This document shows positions 3,230-48,055 of a stretch of DNA of 49,281 nt, in pieces. The notes beneath the pieces were generated by a model, which ran no database searches, had not been told where the DNA came from, and was given only the letters and a program-made list of their open reading frames with translations. The stretch comes from an uncultured Mucilaginibacter sp. (GTDB taxonomy: Bacteria > Bacteroidota > Bacteroidia > Sphingobacteriales > Sphingobacteriaceae): positions 1 through 49,281 of the forward strand of contig CAIYNX010000146.1 of NCBI GenBank assembly GCA_903927645.1. The letters are read 5' to 3'. The translations under genes and the position numbers were made by a program. Position 1 is the stretch's first letter; every line of letters begins with the position of its first letter.

Positions 3230-4294
3230 ATGAGCGGAAAACTTAAAATTGGTATCAGTATTGGTGATGTTAATGGCATTGGATTAGAAATAATAATTAA
3301 AACCCTTGCTGAGAGTAAAATATATGATTATTGTGTGCCTATTGTTTATGGTCACACAAAAGTAGCTTCCTTTTATAAGCGTTCAGTTAATGTAAATGAG
3401 CTTAATTTTACGGTAATAAATCATGCATCAGAAACATATGGAAAAGATCATAAAAAGCCTTTTATGATTAATTGTTGGGAAAACGATGTTAAAATTGAGC
3501 CAGGTACCCCGAATGTTGAGGTTGGCAAATATGCCTTTCTTTCGCTTGAAAGGGCAACGGCAGATTTGATTAAGGGTGAGATAAGTGCTTTGGTTACCGC
3601 ACCAATAAATAAAGACACCATTCAAGGTGAGGATTTTAATTTTCCGGGGCATACCGAATACTTGCAAGACCGTGATGGTGCTTCTGGCTCATTGATGTTT
3701 ATGGTGAGTGATACCTTACGAATTGGTTTAGTAACCGGCCATATACCTATTGCCAAGGTAGCAGATCATATTACCTCCGAAAAAATAGTTGGCAAACTTA
3801 AATTAATGGATGCCAGTTTGCGCAATGATTTTTGGGTACGTAAACCTAAGATTGCCGTTTTGGGACTAAATCCGCATGCCGGAGATAATGGTTTGATTGG
3901 CGAAGAAGAAAAAGCCATCATTTCGCCTGCCATTGAGGAAGCCAAAAATCAAAACATAATGGCATTTGGTCCTTTTGCTGCTGATGGCTTTTTTGCCAAT
4001 GGTACTTACCATCAATTTGATGCTGTTTTGGCCATGTACCATGATCAGGGTTTGATCCCTTTTAAACAAATCGCTTTTGAATCGGGTGTAAACTTTACTG
4101 CTGGCCTTAACTTTGTACGAACTTCTCCCGACCACGGTACGGCCTATGATATTGCTGGAAAAAATCTTGCCTCAGAGGTTTCCTTTCGTGAAGCCATATT
4201 TACCGCGCTGCACATTGTTAAAAACCGCAATGAAAACTTGGAATTAAACGAAAACCCCTTAAAGTTTACCAAATTGAGTAGAGATAGGGATTGA
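3230..4294 (+). CDS. pdxA: 4-hydroxythreonine-4-phosphate dehydrogenase
   Basis: GISIGDVNGIGLEI, VTAPINKDTIQ, FPGHTEYL, YHDQGLIPFK, TSPDHGTAYDIAG motifs of PdxA. Confidence 0.95.
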   Translation: MSGKLKIGISIGDVNGIGLEIIIKTLAESKIYDYCVPIVYGHTKVASFYKRSVNVNELNFTVINHASETYGKDHKKPFMINCWENDVKIEPGTPNVEVGKYAFLSLERATADLIKGEISALVTAPINKDTIQGEDFNFPGHTEYLQDRDGASGSLMFMVSDTLRIGLVTGHIPIAKVADHITSEKIVGKLKLMDASLRNDFWVRKPKIAVLGLNPHAGDNGLIGEEEKAIISPAIEEAKNQNIMAFGPFAADGFFANGTYHQFDAVLAMYHDQGLIPFKQIAFESGVNFTAGLNFVRTSPDHGTAYDIAGKNLASEVSFREAIFTALHIVKNRNENLELNENPLKFTKLSRDRD

Positions 4295-29650: not shown

Positions 29651-31078
29651 TTAATGTTTTTTTTCAACCCATTGGGTATGGAATACGCCTTCTTTGCCAA
29701 TCAACTCATAAGTATGCGCACCAAAATAGTCGCGCTGCGCTTGTGTAAGATTTGATGGCATGCGGGCACTGGTAAAGGCATCAAAATAACTTAAAGAAGC
29801 TGCGTATGCCGGAGTGGCAATACCTGCCGCAATGGTGGCTGATAAAACTGTTCTGGCACCTTTTACAGCTTCCGCAACTAAATGATGTATGCCATTGTCT
29901 AACAATAAATGATTTAATTCCTTATTATTGTCATAGGCATTAAATATATCATTCAAAAACTCTGAACGTATAATGCAACCACCGCGCCAAATTTTGGCAA
30001 TTTCACCTAATTTTAAATCATATTTATAATCTTCAGATGCACGCGCCAACAAGTGCATTCCCTGGGCATAGCTAATAATCATGTTGAAATAAAAGGCTTG
30101 CTCTAAACTGGCAATAAAGGCTGTTTTATCAACATTTAAAGGGGCAATTTCGGTATTATACAGAGCAGCCGCCTGTACCCTTAATTGCTTGTATTTTGAT
30201 AAATCGCGCATGGATACTGCTGTATCAATTGCAGGGATAGGTGCCTGCAAATCCATCGCTACTTGTGATGTCCATTTGCCTGTTCCTTTTGCCCTTGCCT
30301 CATCTTTAATATCATCCAGCAATAGATGGTCAGTTCCCGGAGCCTTATAAGCAAAAATATCTTTGGTAATTTCAAGTAAAAAAGATTTTAGTCGGCCTTC
30401 GTTCCAATCAGAAAATATTTGGCCTATTTCGGCATTATCCAATTGTAAGCCTTTTTTCAAAATTTCGTAAGTCTCGGCCAATAATTGCATAATGGCATAT
30501 TCAATACCATTATGTACCATTTTTACAAAATGGCCAGATGCTCCCGGACCAATATAAGTTACGCATGGTGCCCCATCAACCTTGGCGGCAATTGATTCAA
30601 GGATGGGCTTCATTACATTATAAGCCTCCTTGTCGCCACCCGGCATCATACTTGGACCAAACCTTGCACCTTCTTCACCACCCGAAATTCCCATGCCAAA
30701 AAAATGGAATCCTTTTGCTTCCAATTCCTCTACACGACGGTTTGTATCGGTAAAGTGCGAATTACCGCCATCAATCAAAATATCGCCTTTATCAAGGTAG
30801 GGCAATAAGCTGGCTATTACATCGTCCACAATTTTACCCGCCGGCACCAACATCATGATGGCTTTCGGACTGGTTAAGCTGGCGGTAAATGCCTGTATAT
30901 CGCTAAATCCCTTTAGGTTATTATTGGTACTTTCTTTTTCAAGCAATGCGCCTTTTGAGGCATCGGTATCAAAACCTGCACCGGCAACGCCGTGGTCGCC
31001 CATGTTTAACAACAGATTACGGCCCATGGTTCCAAGGCCTATCATCCCGAAATTGTATTTATCTGGTGTGTTGCTCAT
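29651..31078 (-). CDS. gnd: 6-phosphogluconate dehydrogenase, decarboxylating
   Basis: GMIGLGTMGRNLLLNM, GMGISGGEEGARFGPSMMPGG, GHFVKMVHNGIEYAIMQLLAE. Confidence 0.97.
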   Translation of the reverse strand: MSNTPDKYNFGMIGLGTMGRNLLLNMGDHGVAGAGFDTDASKGALLEKESTNNNLKGFSDIQAFTASLTSPKAIMMLVPAGKIVDDVIASLLPYLDKGDILIDGGNSHFTDTNRRVEELEAKGFHFFGMGISGGEEGARFGPSMMPGGDKEAYNVMKPILESIAAKVDGAPCVTYIGPGASGHFVKMVHNGIEYAIMQLLAETYEILKKGLQLDNAEIGQIFSDWNEGRLKSFLLEITKDIFAYKAPGTDHLLLDDIKDEARAKGTGKWTSQVAMDLQAPIPAIDTAVSMRDLSKYKQLRVQAAALYNTEIAPLNVDKTAFIASLEQAFYFNMIISYAQGMHLLARASEDYKYDLKLGEIAKIWRGGCIIRSEFLNDIFNAYDNNKELNHLLLDNGIHHLVAEAVKGARTVLSATIAAGIATPAYAASLSYFDAFTSARMPSNLTQAQRDYFGAHTYELIGKEGVFHTQWVEKKH

Positions 31079-31707
31079 TTTAAATTTGATTGATTTTCTT
31101 TTTTTAAGTTTTCCAGTATGTTTTTGGTAGTTTCAAAATCAGTATGGTGAAAGGCCTTGATGCCTATTTTTTGCGCAGCATTGGCAAACATGGGTCTGTC
31201 GTCAAAATAAACACACTGACTAGGTTTTGCCAAAGCTACACCCAAGGCAAGGTTAAATATAGCAGGATCGGGTTTACGCAATTTTACCTCGCAAGAGGAT
31301 ATGAAAGCATCAAAACAATCATGCAATTTGAATTTTTTTACCCGATAATCATTCAGTTCCTTTCCTTCGTTATTGATGGCAATGATCCTGAAACCACAGT
31401 CTTTTTTCCAAGCCTTTAGCCATTGCAGCATATCGGGCAATTCCTGACTTTGCCTAAAGATAAATTCTTTAAAGTCTTCGCGGGCAAAATCGCGGGGGCG
31501 GTTAAATACTACGGTATCAAGGTATTCGTCCAAGTTTATACTGCCCATTTCATACACATTAAAAATAAATGTATGAAGCTCCGTCACTTCGGCATAATCC
31601 AAGCCAAACAATTCGCAAGCTTCCATGCGCGAGCGGTGACCCCAGCCGTTGGTAAGTAAAACCCCACCAATATCAAAAAACAATATTTTTACCGATGTAG
31701 CTTCCAA
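31075..31707 (-). CDS. HAD-family hydrolase (YihX-like class) overlapping gnd by 4 bp
   Basis: motif I FFDIGGVLL, IIAINNEGKELND at motif II, CEVKLRKPDPAIF, VYFDDRPMF. Confidence 0.85.
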   Translation of the reverse strand: MEATSVKILFFDIGGVLLTNGWGHRSRMEACELFGLDYAEVTELHTFIFNVYEMGSINLDEYLDTVVFNRPRDFAREDFKEFIFRQSQELPDMLQWLKAWKKDCGFRIIAINNEGKELNDYRVKKFKLHDCFDAFISSCEVKLRKPDPAIFNLALGVALAKPSQCVYFDDRPMFANAAQKIGIKAFHHTDFETTKNILENLKKENQSNLK

Positions 31708-39162: not shown

Positions 39163-41562
39163 ATGGAATTTGTAACAATTTTATTACTAATAATTATTAT
39201 TACTTTAGTAATAATTCTCAAATCAAATGTAAGAGAAAAGTTTGATGATGTTGAAGATAATATTGCCCAAATAAGGCAATTATTGGAAAAAATTGAAATA
39301 CAAGGTAAAATTTCTATTACAGAAGAAAAGATAGGTAATGTAGCACCTTTAAAACCAATTATAACTCCACCTGTGCCTAAAGTAGAGAAGGAAAAGCCAG
39401 AAACAATTGTAGAGCAGCATCAGGAAGTAATTGCAGATAACTTTTCGAAAATTAAAACCAAAGAGGAAGTATTTGCCGATAGTTTATCCCAAATTAGGAA
39501 GCCTATTAAAACGTGGTCACCACCAGTTTTTGAGGAAGAACAACCAAAGCCTACATTTTTTGAGCGAAATCCTGACCTTGAAAAATTTATAGGCGAAAAC
39601 CTATTTAATAAAATTGGTATTGCTATTTTGGTTTTAGCAATAGGTTTCTTTGTTAAATACGCAATTGATAATAATTGGATAGGACCAATTGGTCGGGTAG
39701 GGATAGGCTTTATTTGTGGTGGTATTTTAATTGGCTTTGCCCATAAACTCCGCATTACTTACAAGGCATTTAGTTCGGTTTTAACTGGCGGCGGGTTGGC
39801 TATTTTTTATTTCACCATAACATTGGCCTTTCAGGAATTTCATTTGTTTAGTCAACTTGTTGCATTATTTTTATTGATAGTAATTACCATATTCTCGGTG
39901 TTATTATCATTATTATACAATAAGCAAGAACTTGCCATAATAGCTTTAATTGGTGGCTTTTCGAGTCCTTTTTTGATAAGTAACGGTAGCGCCAATTACA
40001 ACGGACTATTTATTTATCTGCTTATCTTAAATATTGGTTTGTTAAGTATTGCCTATTTTAAAGCTTGGCGAATACTTAATATATTGGCTTATGCCTTTAG
40101 CCTTATTATATTGATCACCATTGTTTTAACTATGCCTTTTAAGGCTTACTCAGGAGCTTTTGCCTTTTTAACAATTTTCTATCTGTTGTTTTTTGCTATA
40201 AACATTATAAACAATGTACGTGAAAATAAAAAGTTTTTAGCGATTGATTTTACCATTTTATTAACCAATACAGCATTTTACTTTTCGGCAGGACTATTTT
40301 TATTGTCGGAAATGGAATTAAACCAATACAATGGATTTTTTAGTGCAGGATTGGCTGCTATCAATCTGGTCCTATCCTATTTTTTATTCAAAAACAGGAA
40401 AGTTGATACAAACATACTTTACTTATTAATAGGTATTACTTTTACCTTTATCTCATTAACCGCCCCTTTGCAATTACATGGTCATTATATCACACTATTT
40501 TGGGCGTCAGAATGTGTATTGTTGTATTGGTTATCCCAAAAATCATCCATTTTATTGCTAAGAATTGCTTCTTACATAATATGGATAGCCATGATGGTTA
40601 GTTTAGTGATGGACTTAGATAGCGTTTATTTTGATAATAATCAAGCCATTACTATCATCTTCAATAAGGGATATATCACAACTGTTTATTCGGCCATTTG
40701 TACTTATCTATTATATGTTTTAATTAGTAAAGAAGTTATTGCCGAAGAGCCAACCGAATTTGACATGTTTAAGGGGATATTTAAGTACCTAGCATTTATT
40801 ATGTTTTTTTTAAGTGGCTTGTTTGAGATAAATTATCAGTTTTCCCTTTCATTCCCAAAAAGCAGCGTGAACATTTTGTATATCATGTTGTATATACCAG
40901 TATTTATTTTGTTGTTTAATTTTATTTATCAAAAAGTTGAAAATCAAAAATATAGATGGCAATTGGGACTGATTTTAATGTTTTTAAGTGTATCGATATA
41001 CTTGATTAGTACCCCTGTGGTTTTTTTATTATTGAACGATATTTTGGTAAAAGGCAATATTTCTATTTTCCATATTTATATACATTGGTTAAGCGATGGG
41101 ATGATAATTTTAGTATTTTATCAATTAGTTAGCCTAAGTAGAAAATACATTGCTGAAGAAAGCATCAATTTAATATCATGGGCAATATCAACCTTGGCTA
41201 TCATATTTTTAAGTACAGAATTTTCATTGCTTAGCAACCAATTATTTTATGGTAAGGGTGAACAAATAGGTATTATCGAAAACGTTTATATAAAGGCTGT
41301 TTTACCTGTTTTATGGGGGGTACTGTCATTTATACTTATGTGGTTAGGTATGCGTAAAAAGGTGCGTGTTTTCCGGATCATATCACTTACATTATTTTTT
41401 ATTACCCTTACTAAATTGTTTGTTTTTGACATTATTGATATACCTATTACCGGCAAAATAGCCGCGTTTTTCTGTTTGGGTGTATTATTGCTCATCGTAT
41501 CATTTATGTACCAAAAAGTTAAAAAAATTATAGTTGATGATAAACCTAAATCAAATGATTAA
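39163..41562 (+). CDS. DUF2339 domain-containing polytopic membrane protein
   Basis: N-terminal helix and coiled-coil/linker, then ENLFNKIGIAILVLAIGFFVKYAIDNNWIGPIGRVGIGFICGGILIGFAHKLR, many TM helices. Confidence 0.88.
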   Translation: MEFVTILLLIIIITLVIILKSNVREKFDDVEDNIAQIRQLLEKIEIQGKISITEEKIGNVAPLKPIITPPVPKVEKEKPETIVEQHQEVIADNFSKIKTKEEVFADSLSQIRKPIKTWSPPVFEEEQPKPTFFERNPDLEKFIGENLFNKIGIAILVLAIGFFVKYAIDNNWIGPIGRVGIGFICGGILIGFAHKLRITYKAFSSVLTGGGLAIFYFTITLAFQEFHLFSQLVALFLLIVITIFSVLLSLLYNKQELAIIALIGGFSSPFLISNGSANYNGLFIYLLILNIGLLSIAYFKAWRILNILAYAFSLIILITIVLTMPFKAYSGAFAFLTIFYLLFFAINIINNVRENKKFLAIDFTILLTNTAFYFSAGLFLLSEMELNQYNGFFSAGLAAINLVLSYFLFKNRKVDTNILYLLIGITFTFISLTAPLQLHGHYITLFWASECVLLYWLSQKSSILLLRIASYIIWIAMMVSLVMDLDSVYFDNNQAITIIFNKGYITTVYSAICTYLLYVLISKEVIAEEPTEFDMFKGIFKYLAFIMFFLSGLFEINYQFSLSFPKSSVNILYIMLYIPVFILLFNFIYQKVENQKYRWQLGLILMFLSVSIYLISTPVVFLLLNDILVKGNISIFHIYIHWLSDGMIILVFYQLVSLSRKYIAEESINLISWAISTLAIIFLSTEFSLLSNQLFYGKGEQIGIIENVYIKAVLPVLWGVLSFILMWLGMRKKVRVFRIISLTLFFITLTKLFVFDIIDIPITGKIAAFFCLGVLLLIVSFMYQKVKKIIVDDKPKSND

Positions 41563-42571
41563 AAATACGATACTGCTGATTTTTGGGTGTTTGCTAGTTA
41601 AAATTGCCTATGGGCAAAAATACCGTGCAAATATACAAACCATTGATTCGGCAGGTTTTTATAAAATATTATTACAACCCCAATTAATAGCCAAAACTGA
41701 ATCAGCGCTCATTGATTTACGGTTAATGGATAGTAAGGATCGGGAAATCCCTTACGTACCGCCTACTGGTTTACCTGTAAACGAAAAGCCTTTTTTTGTT
41801 GAATTTCCAAAAGTTGGTGCTATAGTTAAGGTTGATAGCCTAACCACCATAATTGCCGAAAATAACCTGGGTAAACCTGTTAGCAACTTATGGCTAAAGG
41901 TTAAAAATACAAATGTGATACGAACCATGAATTTAACAGGTAGCGACGACCTGAAACATTGGTTTGCTATTGAAGAAGGTGCGTTGCTTAATCAACCCGA
42001 TTTGGGTGAGGACGGCGAATATGTTATGACCATCAACTTTCCTGCTAGTAACTACCATTATTTAAGGATTTCTGTTAACGATAAAACCAGAGCTCCAATC
42101 AATTTTTTAGAAGTTGGTATTTATAATTCAAGCGCAGAACAAAAGGCTTATTTGCCAATTTTAACAGCAAGGTTTACACAAAGGGATAGTGGAAAAATAA
42201 CAATCATCAATGTTTGGCTAAATGATAAATATCAGGTTAATAAACTTCATTTTACAATTAAAGGGCCAAAATATTATAAACGAAACGTTCTGGTTTATAA
42301 TGTTTTAGGGAAAAAGCCTGAATTGGTTAGTGATGCTGAACTTAATTCGGTAATCCCAAGCGACCTGTTTTTAATGGAGAAAACCAGTCATTTAGAAATA
42401 AGGATTGATAATGCAGATAATTTGCCATTACAAATAAACAATGTTGAGGCGTTTCAAACTGCAAATTACGTGCTTAGCTATTTAGAAAAAGGTCAATATT
42501 GTTTTACAATTGGTAAACCTAATGCAGAACAACCCAATTACGATCTTAAATTTTTTAAAGATAGCCTTTGA
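41555..42571 (+). CDS. DUF3999-like secreted protein; ORF ends at an in-frame TGA followed by a same-frame TM-encoding extension to 42772 (ORF track start 41534; ATG 41555 more likely)
   Basis: signal peptide MIKNTILLIFGCLLVKIAYGQ; SLTTIIAENNLGKPVSNLWLKVKN, NFLEVGIYN; adjacent to DUF2339. Confidence 0.75.
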   Translation: MIKNTILLIFGCLLVKIAYGQKYRANIQTIDSAGFYKILLQPQLIAKTESALIDLRLMDSKDREIPYVPPTGLPVNEKPFFVEFPKVGAIVKVDSLTTIIAENNLGKPVSNLWLKVKNTNVIRTMNLTGSDDLKHWFAIEEGALLNQPDLGEDGEYVMTINFPASNYHYLRISVNDKTRAPINFLEVGIYNSSAEQKAYLPILTARFTQRDSGKITIINVWLNDKYQVNKLHFTIKGPKYYKRNVLVYNVLGKKPELVSDAELNSVIPSDLFLMEKTSHLEIRIDNADNLPLQINNVEAFQTANYVLSYLEKGQYCFTIGKPNAEQPNYDLKFFKDSL

Positions 42572-42772
42572 GGCCAAGTACCTATAATAACACATCAAGC
42601 AGTAATTCCAAATCCTGATTACCAAAACCCACCCACCAAAACTAAAAAAGAGTATACCGCTTTTATTTGGGCAGCAATTATTGCCGCACTTATATTACTG
42701 GGTTTCCTCGCCTATAAAATGGTTGCCGAAGTAAGAAATAAAGAAAATGGTGATGATTTCAATAAGGAATAA
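42572..42772 (+). pseudogene. in-frame 3' continuation of the DUF3999-like ORF beyond TGA: linker plus TM helix plus basic tail
   Basis: translation GQVPIITHQAVIPNPDYQNPPTKTKKEYTAFIWAAIIAALILLGFLAYKMVAEVRNKENGDDFNKE*, same frame, no early start codon of its own. Confidence 0.6.
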
Positions 42773-42874
42773 AAATGTGCTGTTTTAAACTTGCAAATTT
42801 TTTCAACTAGGTTAAATTGTAGAAGAATTTTTGACGGCAAATAAATTTTCTAATTGTATCTCCAATTAGTTATT

Positions 42875-43327
42875 TTATAATTTTGCAGATATCAATGAAT
42901 CTAAACTCCAACGGTAAGCAGGGATGGTTGCCAATAAAAAACTTGCAGCACTCAGGGTAAAAACAGAATAGCCGAGTGGTGAATCAATACCTGATGAAAT
43001 GGCCATTGAAACAGCAAAGCAAAACGCCAGTATTCCGCTACCTACAGCTGCATACCGAGTAAATAAACCTACAATCAGGAGTATTCCGAATGAGCCCTCT
43101 CCTAAGGTTGCCATTACTGCAAAAAAAGGTGCCCAGCTAAGCGGTATAAAATGCATTACCTGTGCTGTTGCGGCAACAAAATGCGACCAATCGCCCCAGC
43201 CAACATGGGGTTCGCCATTCTTTCCTAAAAGGCCTAAACGGTCGGCCACTTCCCATAAATAGCTACTTCCTATAGCTAATCTTAAATATAGGGAGGGCAA
43301 GTTGAATTTTTGCATTGGGTATTTCAA
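42875..43327 (-). CDS. DoxX-family membrane protein
   Basis: about 4 TM; LYLRLAIGSSYLWEVADRLGLLG, GSFGILLIVGLFTRYAAVGSGILAF. Confidence 0.85.
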   Translation of the reverse strand: MKYPMQKFNLPSLYLRLAIGSSYLWEVADRLGLLGKNGEPHVGWGDWSHFVAATAQVMHFIPLSWAPFFAVMATLGEGSFGILLIVGLFTRYAAVGSGILAFCFAVSMAISSGIDSPLGYSVFTLSAASFLLATIPAYRWSLDSLISAKL

Positions 43328-43442
43328 TATTTGCTTTACAATATTAATTATTTTTATTTTAAAGTGCTTTTTAACAAAAAGGAATATTGAATAAATAAGT
43401 TAAGCGTATTTTTTGGTGAGGTTGACATCCCATTTACAACTT

Positions 43443-45920
43443 CTAACCAAAATTCTTTACCATTTTAGCTATCCGCTCTTCGAGCGTTTCGGTAGTAAGT
43501 CGTTCCCTGCCTAAACTATCCACCATTATAGGGAATGCAAATGGTGTAGGCTTTTCGATGGTTTTTAGGATGATGTTTTGAGTACCTATACGCCTCAATG
43601 CCTCCCGCATCCTAAATTCTTCCAGTTGAAATGATAAGGCTTCGTTATAGGCTTGCCTTATCAGGATATTATCAGGTTCGTACTCGCTAAAAACATCGAA
43701 AAGCAGGGAGGTGGAGGCTTGCAAATGTTTGTTTTTTATGGGTTGGCCAGGGTAGCCTGTAAAAACCAATCCCCCAATATGCGCAATTTCCCTGAACCGC
43801 CTACGTGCCATCTCATTGGCGTTTAAGCTCAATAAAATATCATCCAATAAGTTATCGGCAGATAAAAAGGAGGCATCCTCCAAAAAATCTTCAATGGGTA
43901 TATCTTGGTCTGTTAGCAATTCAAATCCATAATCGTTCATAGCGATGGAGAATGTGGCCGATTTTACCTTACTGATGCGATAAGCTAGTAAGGAGGCCAT
44001 TCCCTCATGCACCAACCTGCCTTCGAATGGATAAAATAATAAATGATGACCTTCACGGGATTTGAACGATTCAATCAAAAATTCATTGCTTTGTGGCAGA
44101 TGCGATAGGGATGCCTGTAGATTAAATAAAGGTTTTAACGCGATCACCTCTTCATCAACCTCTAAACCATGTGCCACCTCATCCAATTTATCACGAAACA
44201 CGGCTGATAATTGGGATGACAAAGGCATACGCCCACCCATCCAGCTAGGTATTAATCCTTTTTTAGCGTTCGATTTTTTTACAAAGGCTGTCATTTCCTT
44301 TAAATGTATAAATTCAAGACTACGGCCAGCAAACCAAAAAACATCCCCAGCCTCTAGTTTTGATACAAAGGATTCCTCGATGGTACCTAAACTGCCCCCG
44401 CTTAACCACTTTATCCGAATACTCATCTCGCTCGTAATGGTGCCTATGCTTAACCGGTGCCGCATAGCTACCCTGCGGTTGTTTACTTTAAATACTCCGT
44501 TAAGCACCTCTACCTTTAAAAATTCGTCGTACTGAGCCAGGGTTTTACCACCAGTGGTAATAAAATCGAGCAAACTGTTAAATTCTTTTTGGGTTAAGTC
44601 GGCAAAGGCATAAGTTCCGATTATTTCTGTAAATAATTCATCCGGCCTAAAACCTTCGGAAACGGCTAGGGTTACCATATATTGTACCAATACATCCATC
44701 GCCAGTAAAAGCGGGTCTCGGCTTTCAAAAATTCCATCTTTAATGCCCTGTTTAAGGGCGGCGCCCTCCAATAATTCGAGCGAATGGGTAGGCACAAAAT
44801 ATGCTTTTGATACGGCACCCGGGTGGTGTCCGCTACGCCCGGCACGTTGCATAAATCGGGCTACGCCTTTGGGGCTGCCAACTTGTATAACCGTATCAAC
44901 CGGTCTAAAATCAACGCCTAAGTCCAAACTTGAGGTACATACTACCAGTTTTAAAGCTTGTGCGTGTAAAGCTTGTTCCACCCAGTTTCGTAAATCATTG
45001 TCTAATGAGCCATGGTGCATAGCCATAATACCGGCATATTCCGGATAATTATCCAAAATAGCATGGTACCATATTTCTGATTGAGCTCTGGTATTGGTAA
45101 AAATTAACGTAGTAACGCTATTAGCCACTAATTCCATTACCTGTGGTAATAGTTTTAAACCAATATGACCTGACCAGCTATAACTTTCAATATTTTCGGG
45201 AATGATTGATTTGATAAGGAGTTTTTTTTCTGTATGAGCTCGAATCATTTTTATCTTGTTTTTCGGGAAATTATTACCCAATAAAACATCGGAAGCTTGT
45301 TCTAAATTTCCTATTGTGGCACTTATACCCCATAATTTCAAGCCCAATTTTTGTTGATTGAATGCTACAATGGCTTTTAATTTTGATAAGCCTAACTCCA
45401 CCTGTACACCGCGTTTAGTGCCCAAAAGTTCGTGCCATTCATCAATCACCACCACCTCCAGCTTTTCGAACATTTTTGGGTATTCCTTTTGGGCTAGCAT
45501 CAGGTGCAAGCTTTCGGGCGTGGTGAGCAGTACTTCGGGTAGTTTCTTTTTGAGGGCTTGTTTTTCGGCTGCGGAGGTATCGCCCGTACGCGCACCAATT
45601 TTCCAGGGGAGCCCTAATTCGTCGCAAACCTCCTGCATGGCCTTTTTTATATCATTGGTTAGTGCTCGCAATGGGGTAATCCACAGCATGAGCAAACCAT
45701 TGTTTTTTTGTTGCTGATAACTATCGGGATGTTGATTGATATACCCTGCCAAAAACGGCAGAAACAAAGCCATGGTTTTACCACTGCCGGTAGGCGCGTT
45801 CAACAAGCCCGAAAAACCGCCCAAATAAGCGGACTCCATCTCCTGCTGAAAGGTAAATTGTTCCCAGTTTTTTTGCTGGTACCAGTTTGCTATTACCTGT
45901 TGCCCTGTTGTTTTTACCAT
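43443..45920 (-). CDS. Lhr-type, ligase-associated DNA damage response DEXH-box helicase
   Basis: LNAPTGSGKTMALFLPF, VVIDEWHELLGTKRGVQVEL, WGISATIGN, DLGVDFRPVDTVIQVGSPKGVARFMQRAGRSGHHPG. Confidence 0.9.
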   Translation of the reverse strand: MVKTTGQQVIANWYQQKNWEQFTFQQEMESAYLGGFSGLLNAPTGSGKTMALFLPFLAGYINQHPDSYQQQKNNGLLMLWITPLRALTNDIKKAMQEVCDELGLPWKIGARTGDTSAAEKQALKKKLPEVLLTTPESLHLMLAQKEYPKMFEKLEVVVIDEWHELLGTKRGVQVELGLSKLKAIVAFNQQKLGLKLWGISATIGNLEQASDVLLGNNFPKNKIKMIRAHTEKKLLIKSIIPENIESYSWSGHIGLKLLPQVMELVANSVTTLIFTNTRAQSEIWYHAILDNYPEYAGIMAMHHGSLDNDLRNWVEQALHAQALKLVVCTSSLDLGVDFRPVDTVIQVGSPKGVARFMQRAGRSGHHPGAVSKAYFVPTHSLELLEGAALKQGIKDGIFESRDPLLLAMDVLVQYMVTLAVSEGFRPDELFTEIIGTYAFADLTQKEFNSLLDFITTGGKTLAQYDEFLKVEVLNGVFKVNNRRVAMRHRLSIGTITSEMSIRIKWLSGGSLGTIEESFVSKLEAGDVFWFAGRSLEFIHLKEMTAFVKKSNAKKGLIPSWMGGRMPLSSQLSAVFRDKLDEVAHGLEVDEEVIALKPLFNLQASLSHLPQSNEFLIESFKSREGHHLLFYPFEGRLVHEGMASLLAYRISKVKSATFSIAMNDYGFELLTDQDIPIEDFLEDASFLSADNLLDDILLSLNANEMARRRFREIAHIGGLVFTGYPGQPIKNKHLQASTSLLFDVFSEYEPDNILIRQAYNEALSFQLEEFRMREALRRIGTQNIILKTIEKPTPFAFPIMVDSLGRERLTTETLEERIAKMVKNFG

Positions 45921-45959: not shown

Positions 45960-47009
45960 TTATATTACCTCAATGCTAAGTTCACCAACTTTGGGTTGTA
46001 AAGTACCTATGGCAATAATACATTTTGGGTCGATTTGGTTCTCTTTTAAAATATGCTCAAATGACGCGATGCCATCTTCCTCCACAGCAATCAATAAGCC
46101 GCCGCTTGTTTGTGGGTCGGCCAGGATATGTTTTTGTTGCTCGGTAATTGAGCCAATTTTTTGTCCGTAGCTTTTCCAATTGCGTACTGTACCACCCGGT
46201 ATACAACCTTGCTCCAGGTAACTGGTGATGGATTCAATTTTTGGAACTTTATCAAACTCAATAACCGCTTGCAGGTTACTGCCCTCGCACATTTCGCTGA
46301 GGTGCCCAAGTAGTCCGAAGCCAGTAACATCGGTCATGGCTTTTACTTGTGGCAAATTGCCCAATACCTCGCCAATTTTATTGAGTTTGCACATGCTATT
46401 TAAGGCAATCAGCGCGTCTTCCGTTTTTAAAACTCCTTTTTTTTGCGCCGTGCTGAGTATGCCCACACCAAGGGCTTTGGTTAGGTATAGTTTACAGCCT
46501 GCGGTAGCGGTGGAGTTTTTTTTGAGATTATTAACCGCTACCATACCATTTACCGACAAGCCAAAAACCGGTTCGGGGCAGTCAATGCTATGCCCGCCGG
46601 CAAGGGTAATACCCGCTTCGGCACAAATTGCACGGGAGCCTTCCAATACTTTTTGGGCAATTTCGGCAGGTATTTTATCAATGGGCCATCCTAAAATAGC
46701 GATTGCTAATACTGGTTTCCCACCCATGGCATACACATCGCTAATGGCATTGGCCGATGCTATCCGCCCAAAATCATAGGCATCGTCAACTATGGGCATA
46801 AAGAAATCGGTGGTCGAAATTAAGGCCATGCCATTGCCTAAATCAAGCACCGCGGCATCATCCCGGGTATCGTTACCCACCAATAAGTTTGGGTCGGCCT
46901 GATGCTTAATGGGGCTATGCAAAATGGTATCCAATACTGCCGGACTAATCTTACAGCCACATCCCGCTCCGTGCGAATATTGGGTGAGTTTTATATCGTT
47001 TATATTCAT
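45960..47009 (-). CDS. selD: selenide, water dikinase (selenophosphate synthetase), Cys form
   Basis: [78 protein letters not shown]. Confidence 0.97.
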
Positions 47010-47029
47010 GGTTTTTATACCTGCTTGTT

Positions 47030-48055
47030 TTAGTCTTGTTTATATTTTGTAATTAATAAATCGGCAATTGCTTCGTTGCTTTTGTTTGCGCAATCAACTA
47101 ATATAATATTTCCCTCACCACGTTTATTCAAGCCGTTTCTATAGGTCTTATCATAGTAAGTTAAAACCAAACGGATAAAATCGTCCATCCTATCTTCATC
47201 AATGGCAATCAGCGCATTTTTGGTTTGCAACGGACCAAGCCGTTTACCTATTTTAAGGGTACATTCTTTTAAAAAGCCCTTGTCCAATACACCATATTCC
47301 TTCACCAAAAAAGCTACCCTTACCTCCAATGGAACATCAATGGCGATAACCTTACAGTCGCGCATTTGTCGCCATAAGGTATTAGGGATAATCATTTTGC
47401 CAATGGTAATGCTTTCATCCTCTATCCAAATTACCTTATCTTGCTTTAATTGTGCTAATTGCGTACCCAGGTTATTTTCAAACTGCTCTTGCGTTGGTTG
47501 TACTAAATAATTCATGGAGCCGAAAGTAGAACCTTGATGCTGGGCAATATCCTCCAAATCAACCACTTGTTCGCCCTTTTGTTTTAGCAATTGTAAAATC
47601 TTGGTTTTGCCCGAGCCAGTTAATCCTCCTAATATTTGTAATCTGTAATTTTTTACAAAATGAGCTCTTATCCATTCCCGGTATTTTTTGTAGCCGCCTT
47701 GTAGTAGGTAAACATCAAAGCCATATAAGTTTAATGCCCAAGCCATGGCGCCACTACGCATGCCTCCACGCCAGCAGTGTACCGCTATTTTTTTATCAGG
47801 TGCAATTTGGAGGGCTTGCCTAATAAAGCCCGACCATTTATTGCCTGTTAAATCAAAACCCAATAAAATAGCTTGCTCCCTACCTATTTGTTTATAAGTA
47901 GTACCTACCTGCACCCGCTCCTCATTGCTAAACAAAGGAATATTGAAGGCACCGCAAATATGGCCCTGCTCAAACTCGGCCGGGGTGCGCACATCAACTA
48001 CCGGGATAGTTTTATCTAACTCAATAAGGGCACTTACATCAATGTTTTTTATCAT
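47030..48055 (-). CDS. mnmH: tRNA 2-selenouridine synthase (rhodanese plus P-loop)
   Basis: [72 protein letters not shown]. Confidence 0.97.

Follow-up and report, generated by a model that had tools for sequence, protein, structure and literature searches.

A premature TGA ahead of the membrane anchor in the DUF3999 gene of an Arc3A-Arc3B-type operon from a Mucilaginibacter-related draft genome

A stop codon inside an otherwise well-formed gene can be a mutation, a mistake in the sequence, or a codon that the cell reads in an unusual manner, and such a case is met in a contig from an uncultured Mucilaginibacter sp. (CAIYNX010000146.1, 49,281 nucleotides, analysed over its whole length and hereafter called the window). 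An initial annotation proposed that an in-frame TGA at 42569-42571 splits a DUF3999-like gene, with the same frame remaining open to a TAA at 42770-42772, and the sequence bears this out (...GAT AGC CTT TGA GGC CAA GTA..., with the gene body ending in ...DLKFFKDSL). What, then, is this TGA, and does the protein still obtain the segment encoded behind it?

The locus itself is an ordinary two-gene DUF2339-DUF3999 operon of the Arc3A-Arc3B type. Its first gene (39163-41562, plus strand) is intact and encodes a polytopic membrane protein of the DUF2339 (Arc3A-type) family of 799 amino acids, matching PF10101 with 278.5 bits over residues 144-785. The body of the second, DUF3999 (Arc3B-type) gene occupies 41555-42571 on the same strand and is ended by the TGA. 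Its probable start is the ATG at 41555 (MIKNTILLIFGCLLVKIAYGQ..., resembling a signal peptide), which falls within the last codons of the DUF2339 gene, whose stop (41560-41562) thus overlaps the start of DUF3999; the mechanically called open reading frame begins instead at a TTG at 41534. The protein obtained by reading through the TGA matches PF13163 over residues 108-205 with 45.6 bits, above the Pfam gathering cut-off of 30, and a DUF2339 homologue adjoins the DUF3999 homologue in all 56 loci tested. The C-terminal transmembrane (TM) helix, which other members carry in the same open reading frame, lies beyond the TGA in the window, and by sequence the gene is therefore a truncated member of the DUF3999 (Arc3B) family, for which a fused TM helix is typical.

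Behind the TGA the frame continues as GQVPIITHQAVIPNPDYQNPPTKTKKEYTAFIWAAIIAALILLGFLAYKMVAEVRNKENGDDFNKE, open for 66 codons until the TAA. This separated C-terminal tail (42572-42772, plus strand) comprises a linker, one TM helix (about TAFIWAAIIAALILLGFLA) and a charged cytoplasmic end, an arrangement that had been recognized from the outset and that matches the fused C-terminus of the homologues. The segment TAFIWAAIIAALILLGFLA is also the hydrophobic maximum of the entire protein, with a Kyte-Doolittle mean of 2.5 over 19-residue stretches. The early remark that no ATG precedes the TM segment holds on direct reading of the sequence, and neither GTG nor TTG is found there. Such a long open continuation is unusual in this DNA: past the ends of 36 other genes of the window the frame is closed again within 0-60 codons, mostly fewer than 15, and the lone case of 60 codons comes after a TAG that is common to the sister genome and is a genuine gene end. 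In every homologue the 66-codon extension can be aligned with the C-terminus fused there, and on these grounds of homology it is real coding sequence.

A survey of the genus returned a match in 61 of 151 genomes, and 61 distinct sequences, the window's included, were aligned. In each of the 60 distinct homologues besides the window's, the frame runs on across the site, and the protein ends in a 55-69-residue tail that contains the TM helix seen in the window. Homologues that stop here without a TM tail would have removed the anomaly; they were looked for, and a stop at the equivalent codon occurs in none of the 60, so the anomaly stands. The residue opposite the TGA varies widely (K14, R9, H9, Q6, G5, I4, S3, L3, D2, T2, N1, Y1 and P1 among the 60 homologues), with neither cysteine nor tryptophan at the site in any of them, and a GGA codon is present there in three. 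Judged from this alignment, the tail is the normal fused C-terminus of DUF3999 proteins and a fixed part of them in the genus, the site itself is unconserved, and the TGA is private to the window's genome among the genomes compared. Stops inside the gene had also been flagged in six further genomes (G005, G012, G040, G054, G077 and G204, TAA) as a possible recurrence of the TGA; upon re-alignment these turned out to be normal terminal stops or to lie at other codons, and the candidates were rejected.

The closest comparison is provided by a sister species, a Mucilaginibacter metagenome-assembled genome (MAG), whose contig CAITEP010000029.1 carries an intact DUF3999 gene behind DUF2339, with the same tail and 77% protein identity; this genome is syntenic with most of the window. 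At the position of the TGA it has AAA (Lys), preceded by 24 bases that are identical to the window. As a separate matter, DNA similarity between the two ends just past the DUF3999 gene, at window positions 42746-43446, and resumes at 43447. A DoxX/DoxD-like gene (42875-43327, minus strand) lies within this gap, which measures about 700 bases in the window and about 260 in the sister, and the two genomes thus differ here by a small insertion or deletion.

If the stop were old, the tail behind it might be expected to decay. No second stop or frameshift was found in the tail. Measured against the sister, the body has a dN of 0.128 and the tail one of 0.194; the tail-to-body ratio of 1.5 lies within the range of about 0.7-3.2 among the intact family pairs listed, with the reservation that synonymous sites are near saturation and dN therefore permits only a coarse comparison. 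Set against the majority residue, the tail differs at 3 positions in the window lineage and at 6 in the sister. Thus the sequences carry no trace of relaxed evolution, the tail having evolved no faster than family tails elsewhere, and because it is neither faster-evolving nor marked by a second lesion, the stop should be either very recent or an error.

The frequency of comparable lesions was gauged from 118 orthologous genes (41,446 amino acids), taken from parts of the window's genome, an 88.85% complete draft in 354 contigs, and compared with the sister genome. Among them, no clean nonsense codon in mid-gene was seen apart from the window TGA; the further lesions consist of one one-base frameshift and one gene stopping six codons early, and in the reverse direction differences occur only near gene starts. 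An apparent internal TGA at a tryptophan position (L146) was rejected as belonging to a spurious antisense open reading frame. The one-base frameshift (L154; G000 C16, about 760-1960) is a deletion in a T run that breaks the homologue of a 383-residue sister protein, and this gene is either a pseudogene or the site of another base error in the draft. The window TGA is an isolated event, which fits the low background of lesions or errors in such a draft.

Taken together, it is highly probable that the TGA is a private premature stop in the second gene of an ordinary operon, being either a very recent nonsense mutation or a base-call or assembly error. Four explanations had been offered in the initial annotation, of which these two survive while UGA readthrough and selenocysteine fall away. 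The locus shares with ordinary recent nonsense alleles and draft-assembly errors a private, unconserved stop followed by an intact downstream frame, and no feature was found that distinguishes it from them; a literature search on stop-codon errors in metagenome assemblies gave nothing useful. The observation is confirmed, and the phenomenon is an ordinary one. On the one genome of the species that was compared, taken as assembled sequence, mutation and error fit alike, and we infer, rather than observe, both the recency of the stop as against an error and the fate of a truncated protein.

Functional readthrough of the UGA, giving a soluble isoform as the main product and a membrane-anchored one in smaller amount, is very unlikely, even though the tail is intact and evolving no faster than normal, and though the stop is a TGA followed by G: in Escherichia coli no stop is leakier than TGA, and termination is less accurate when a G comes next (PMC11126739). 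A very recent mutation predicts an equally intact tail, and while an undecayed tail would be compatible with continued translation, this reading is unnecessary because the stop is absent elsewhere. A programmed event would be expected to show a stop conserved in relatives together with the conserved downstream frame, and this combination is seen in none of the homologues, the stop being found in one genome and missing from the other 60 sequences. Neither a stable RNA structure 3′ of the TGA (z = 0.65, 0.43 and -0.44) nor an Rfam match after it was detected, and a limited scan for an opal-suppressor tRNA, using one pattern with 43 matches of which 30 were checked with ARAGORN, gave no candidate with a UCA anticodon among those 30. 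Accordingly the sequence offers no positive evidence of programmed or regulated readthrough. A related version, that a recent TGA in the leaky TGA-G context has been kept because low-level readthrough usefully provides both free periplasmic and membrane-anchored Arc3B-type forms, is less likely still. If the TGA is real, traces of full-length protein would be expected without any programme, given the leakiness of TGA and the unfavourable effect of a following G on termination in E. coli (PMC11126739).

It is even harder to credit a settled truncation, in which the anchor was lost adaptively in favour of a soluble form: the partner of this type is only auxiliary in Pseudomonas aeruginosa, so that its loss may be tolerated (PMC8926400), but the cut-off tail has not decayed and none of the relatives (60 homologues) has the truncated form.

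Selenocysteine, raised earlier as a remote option, deserves almost no credence. An in-frame UGA with an open continuation recalls bacterial selenoproteins, and selD lies about 3.4 kb away. However, selD stands side by side with mnmH, which encodes a tRNA 2-selenouridine synthase (window 45960-48055), and this pairing is sufficient to explain its presence, as had already been suggested. In the genome, at 88.85% completeness, selA gave no match, every selB match fell under the family cut-off, and all tRNA-Sec matches scored below the gathering score, the best being tRNA-Ser(UGA). Furthermore, none of the 60 homologues has cysteine at the site, and no bSECIS-like hairpin follows the TGA (minimum free energy -2.5 kcal/mol, z = 0.65). 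With selD-mnmH present and the selenoprotein machinery not found in the genome, selenium is apparently used for tRNA modification only. Least probable of all is a genome-wide reassignment of TGA to a sense codon, for which the 118-gene comparison gave no support: TGA ends the intact window genes at 3230-4294 and 31075-31707, no other real gene among the 118 has an internal TGA, and the anticodon of tRNA-Trp is CCA.

We return to the preferred reading, a very recent nonsense mutation or an error. In the event of a true mutation, translation would end at Leu345 (numbered from the TTG at 41534), and the protein would be exported without its single inner-membrane anchor; it would either be set free into the periplasm or be unstable there. 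Full-length protein would arise from nothing more than background misreading of UGA, and the upstream DUF2339 protein would stay intact. Two counterpoints should be mentioned. A change from the sister's AAA to TGA requires two substitutions unless an intermediate (e.g., Arg or Gly) existed, and the site does vary. Also, by analogy with E. coli, where TGA-G is leaky, some anchored product would probably still be made.

The wider meaning of the locus comes from the Arc3A-Arc3B pair of P. aeruginosa antagonism resistance cluster 3, which is DUF2339-DUF3999 (PA5114-PA5113). There, protection from the phospholipase toxin Tle3 comes mainly from Arc3A, with Arc3B in an auxiliary role (PMC8926400). 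As in P. aeruginosa, the DUF2339 gene of the window is directly followed by its DUF3999 (PF13163) partner, and the N-terminal export signal and C-terminal TM helix of the homologues match the periplasm-spanning architecture described for Arc3 (PMC8926400); the window locus differs in the premature TGA ahead of the TM helix. The Tle3-defence phenotype is experimentally known only from P. aeruginosa and its relatives (PMC8926400), and by analogy defence against phospholipase toxins may carry over to this genus. The comparison links this operon with the antagonism-resistance pair of Arc3. Annotators should record the gene as interrupted or as a pseudogene candidate, or have it checked for a base error, and beyond this the stop has little importance. 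Were the TGA real, the organism would have an exported, unanchored Arc3B-type protein beside an intact Arc3A-type protein, and the loss of the auxiliary partner could be tolerated.
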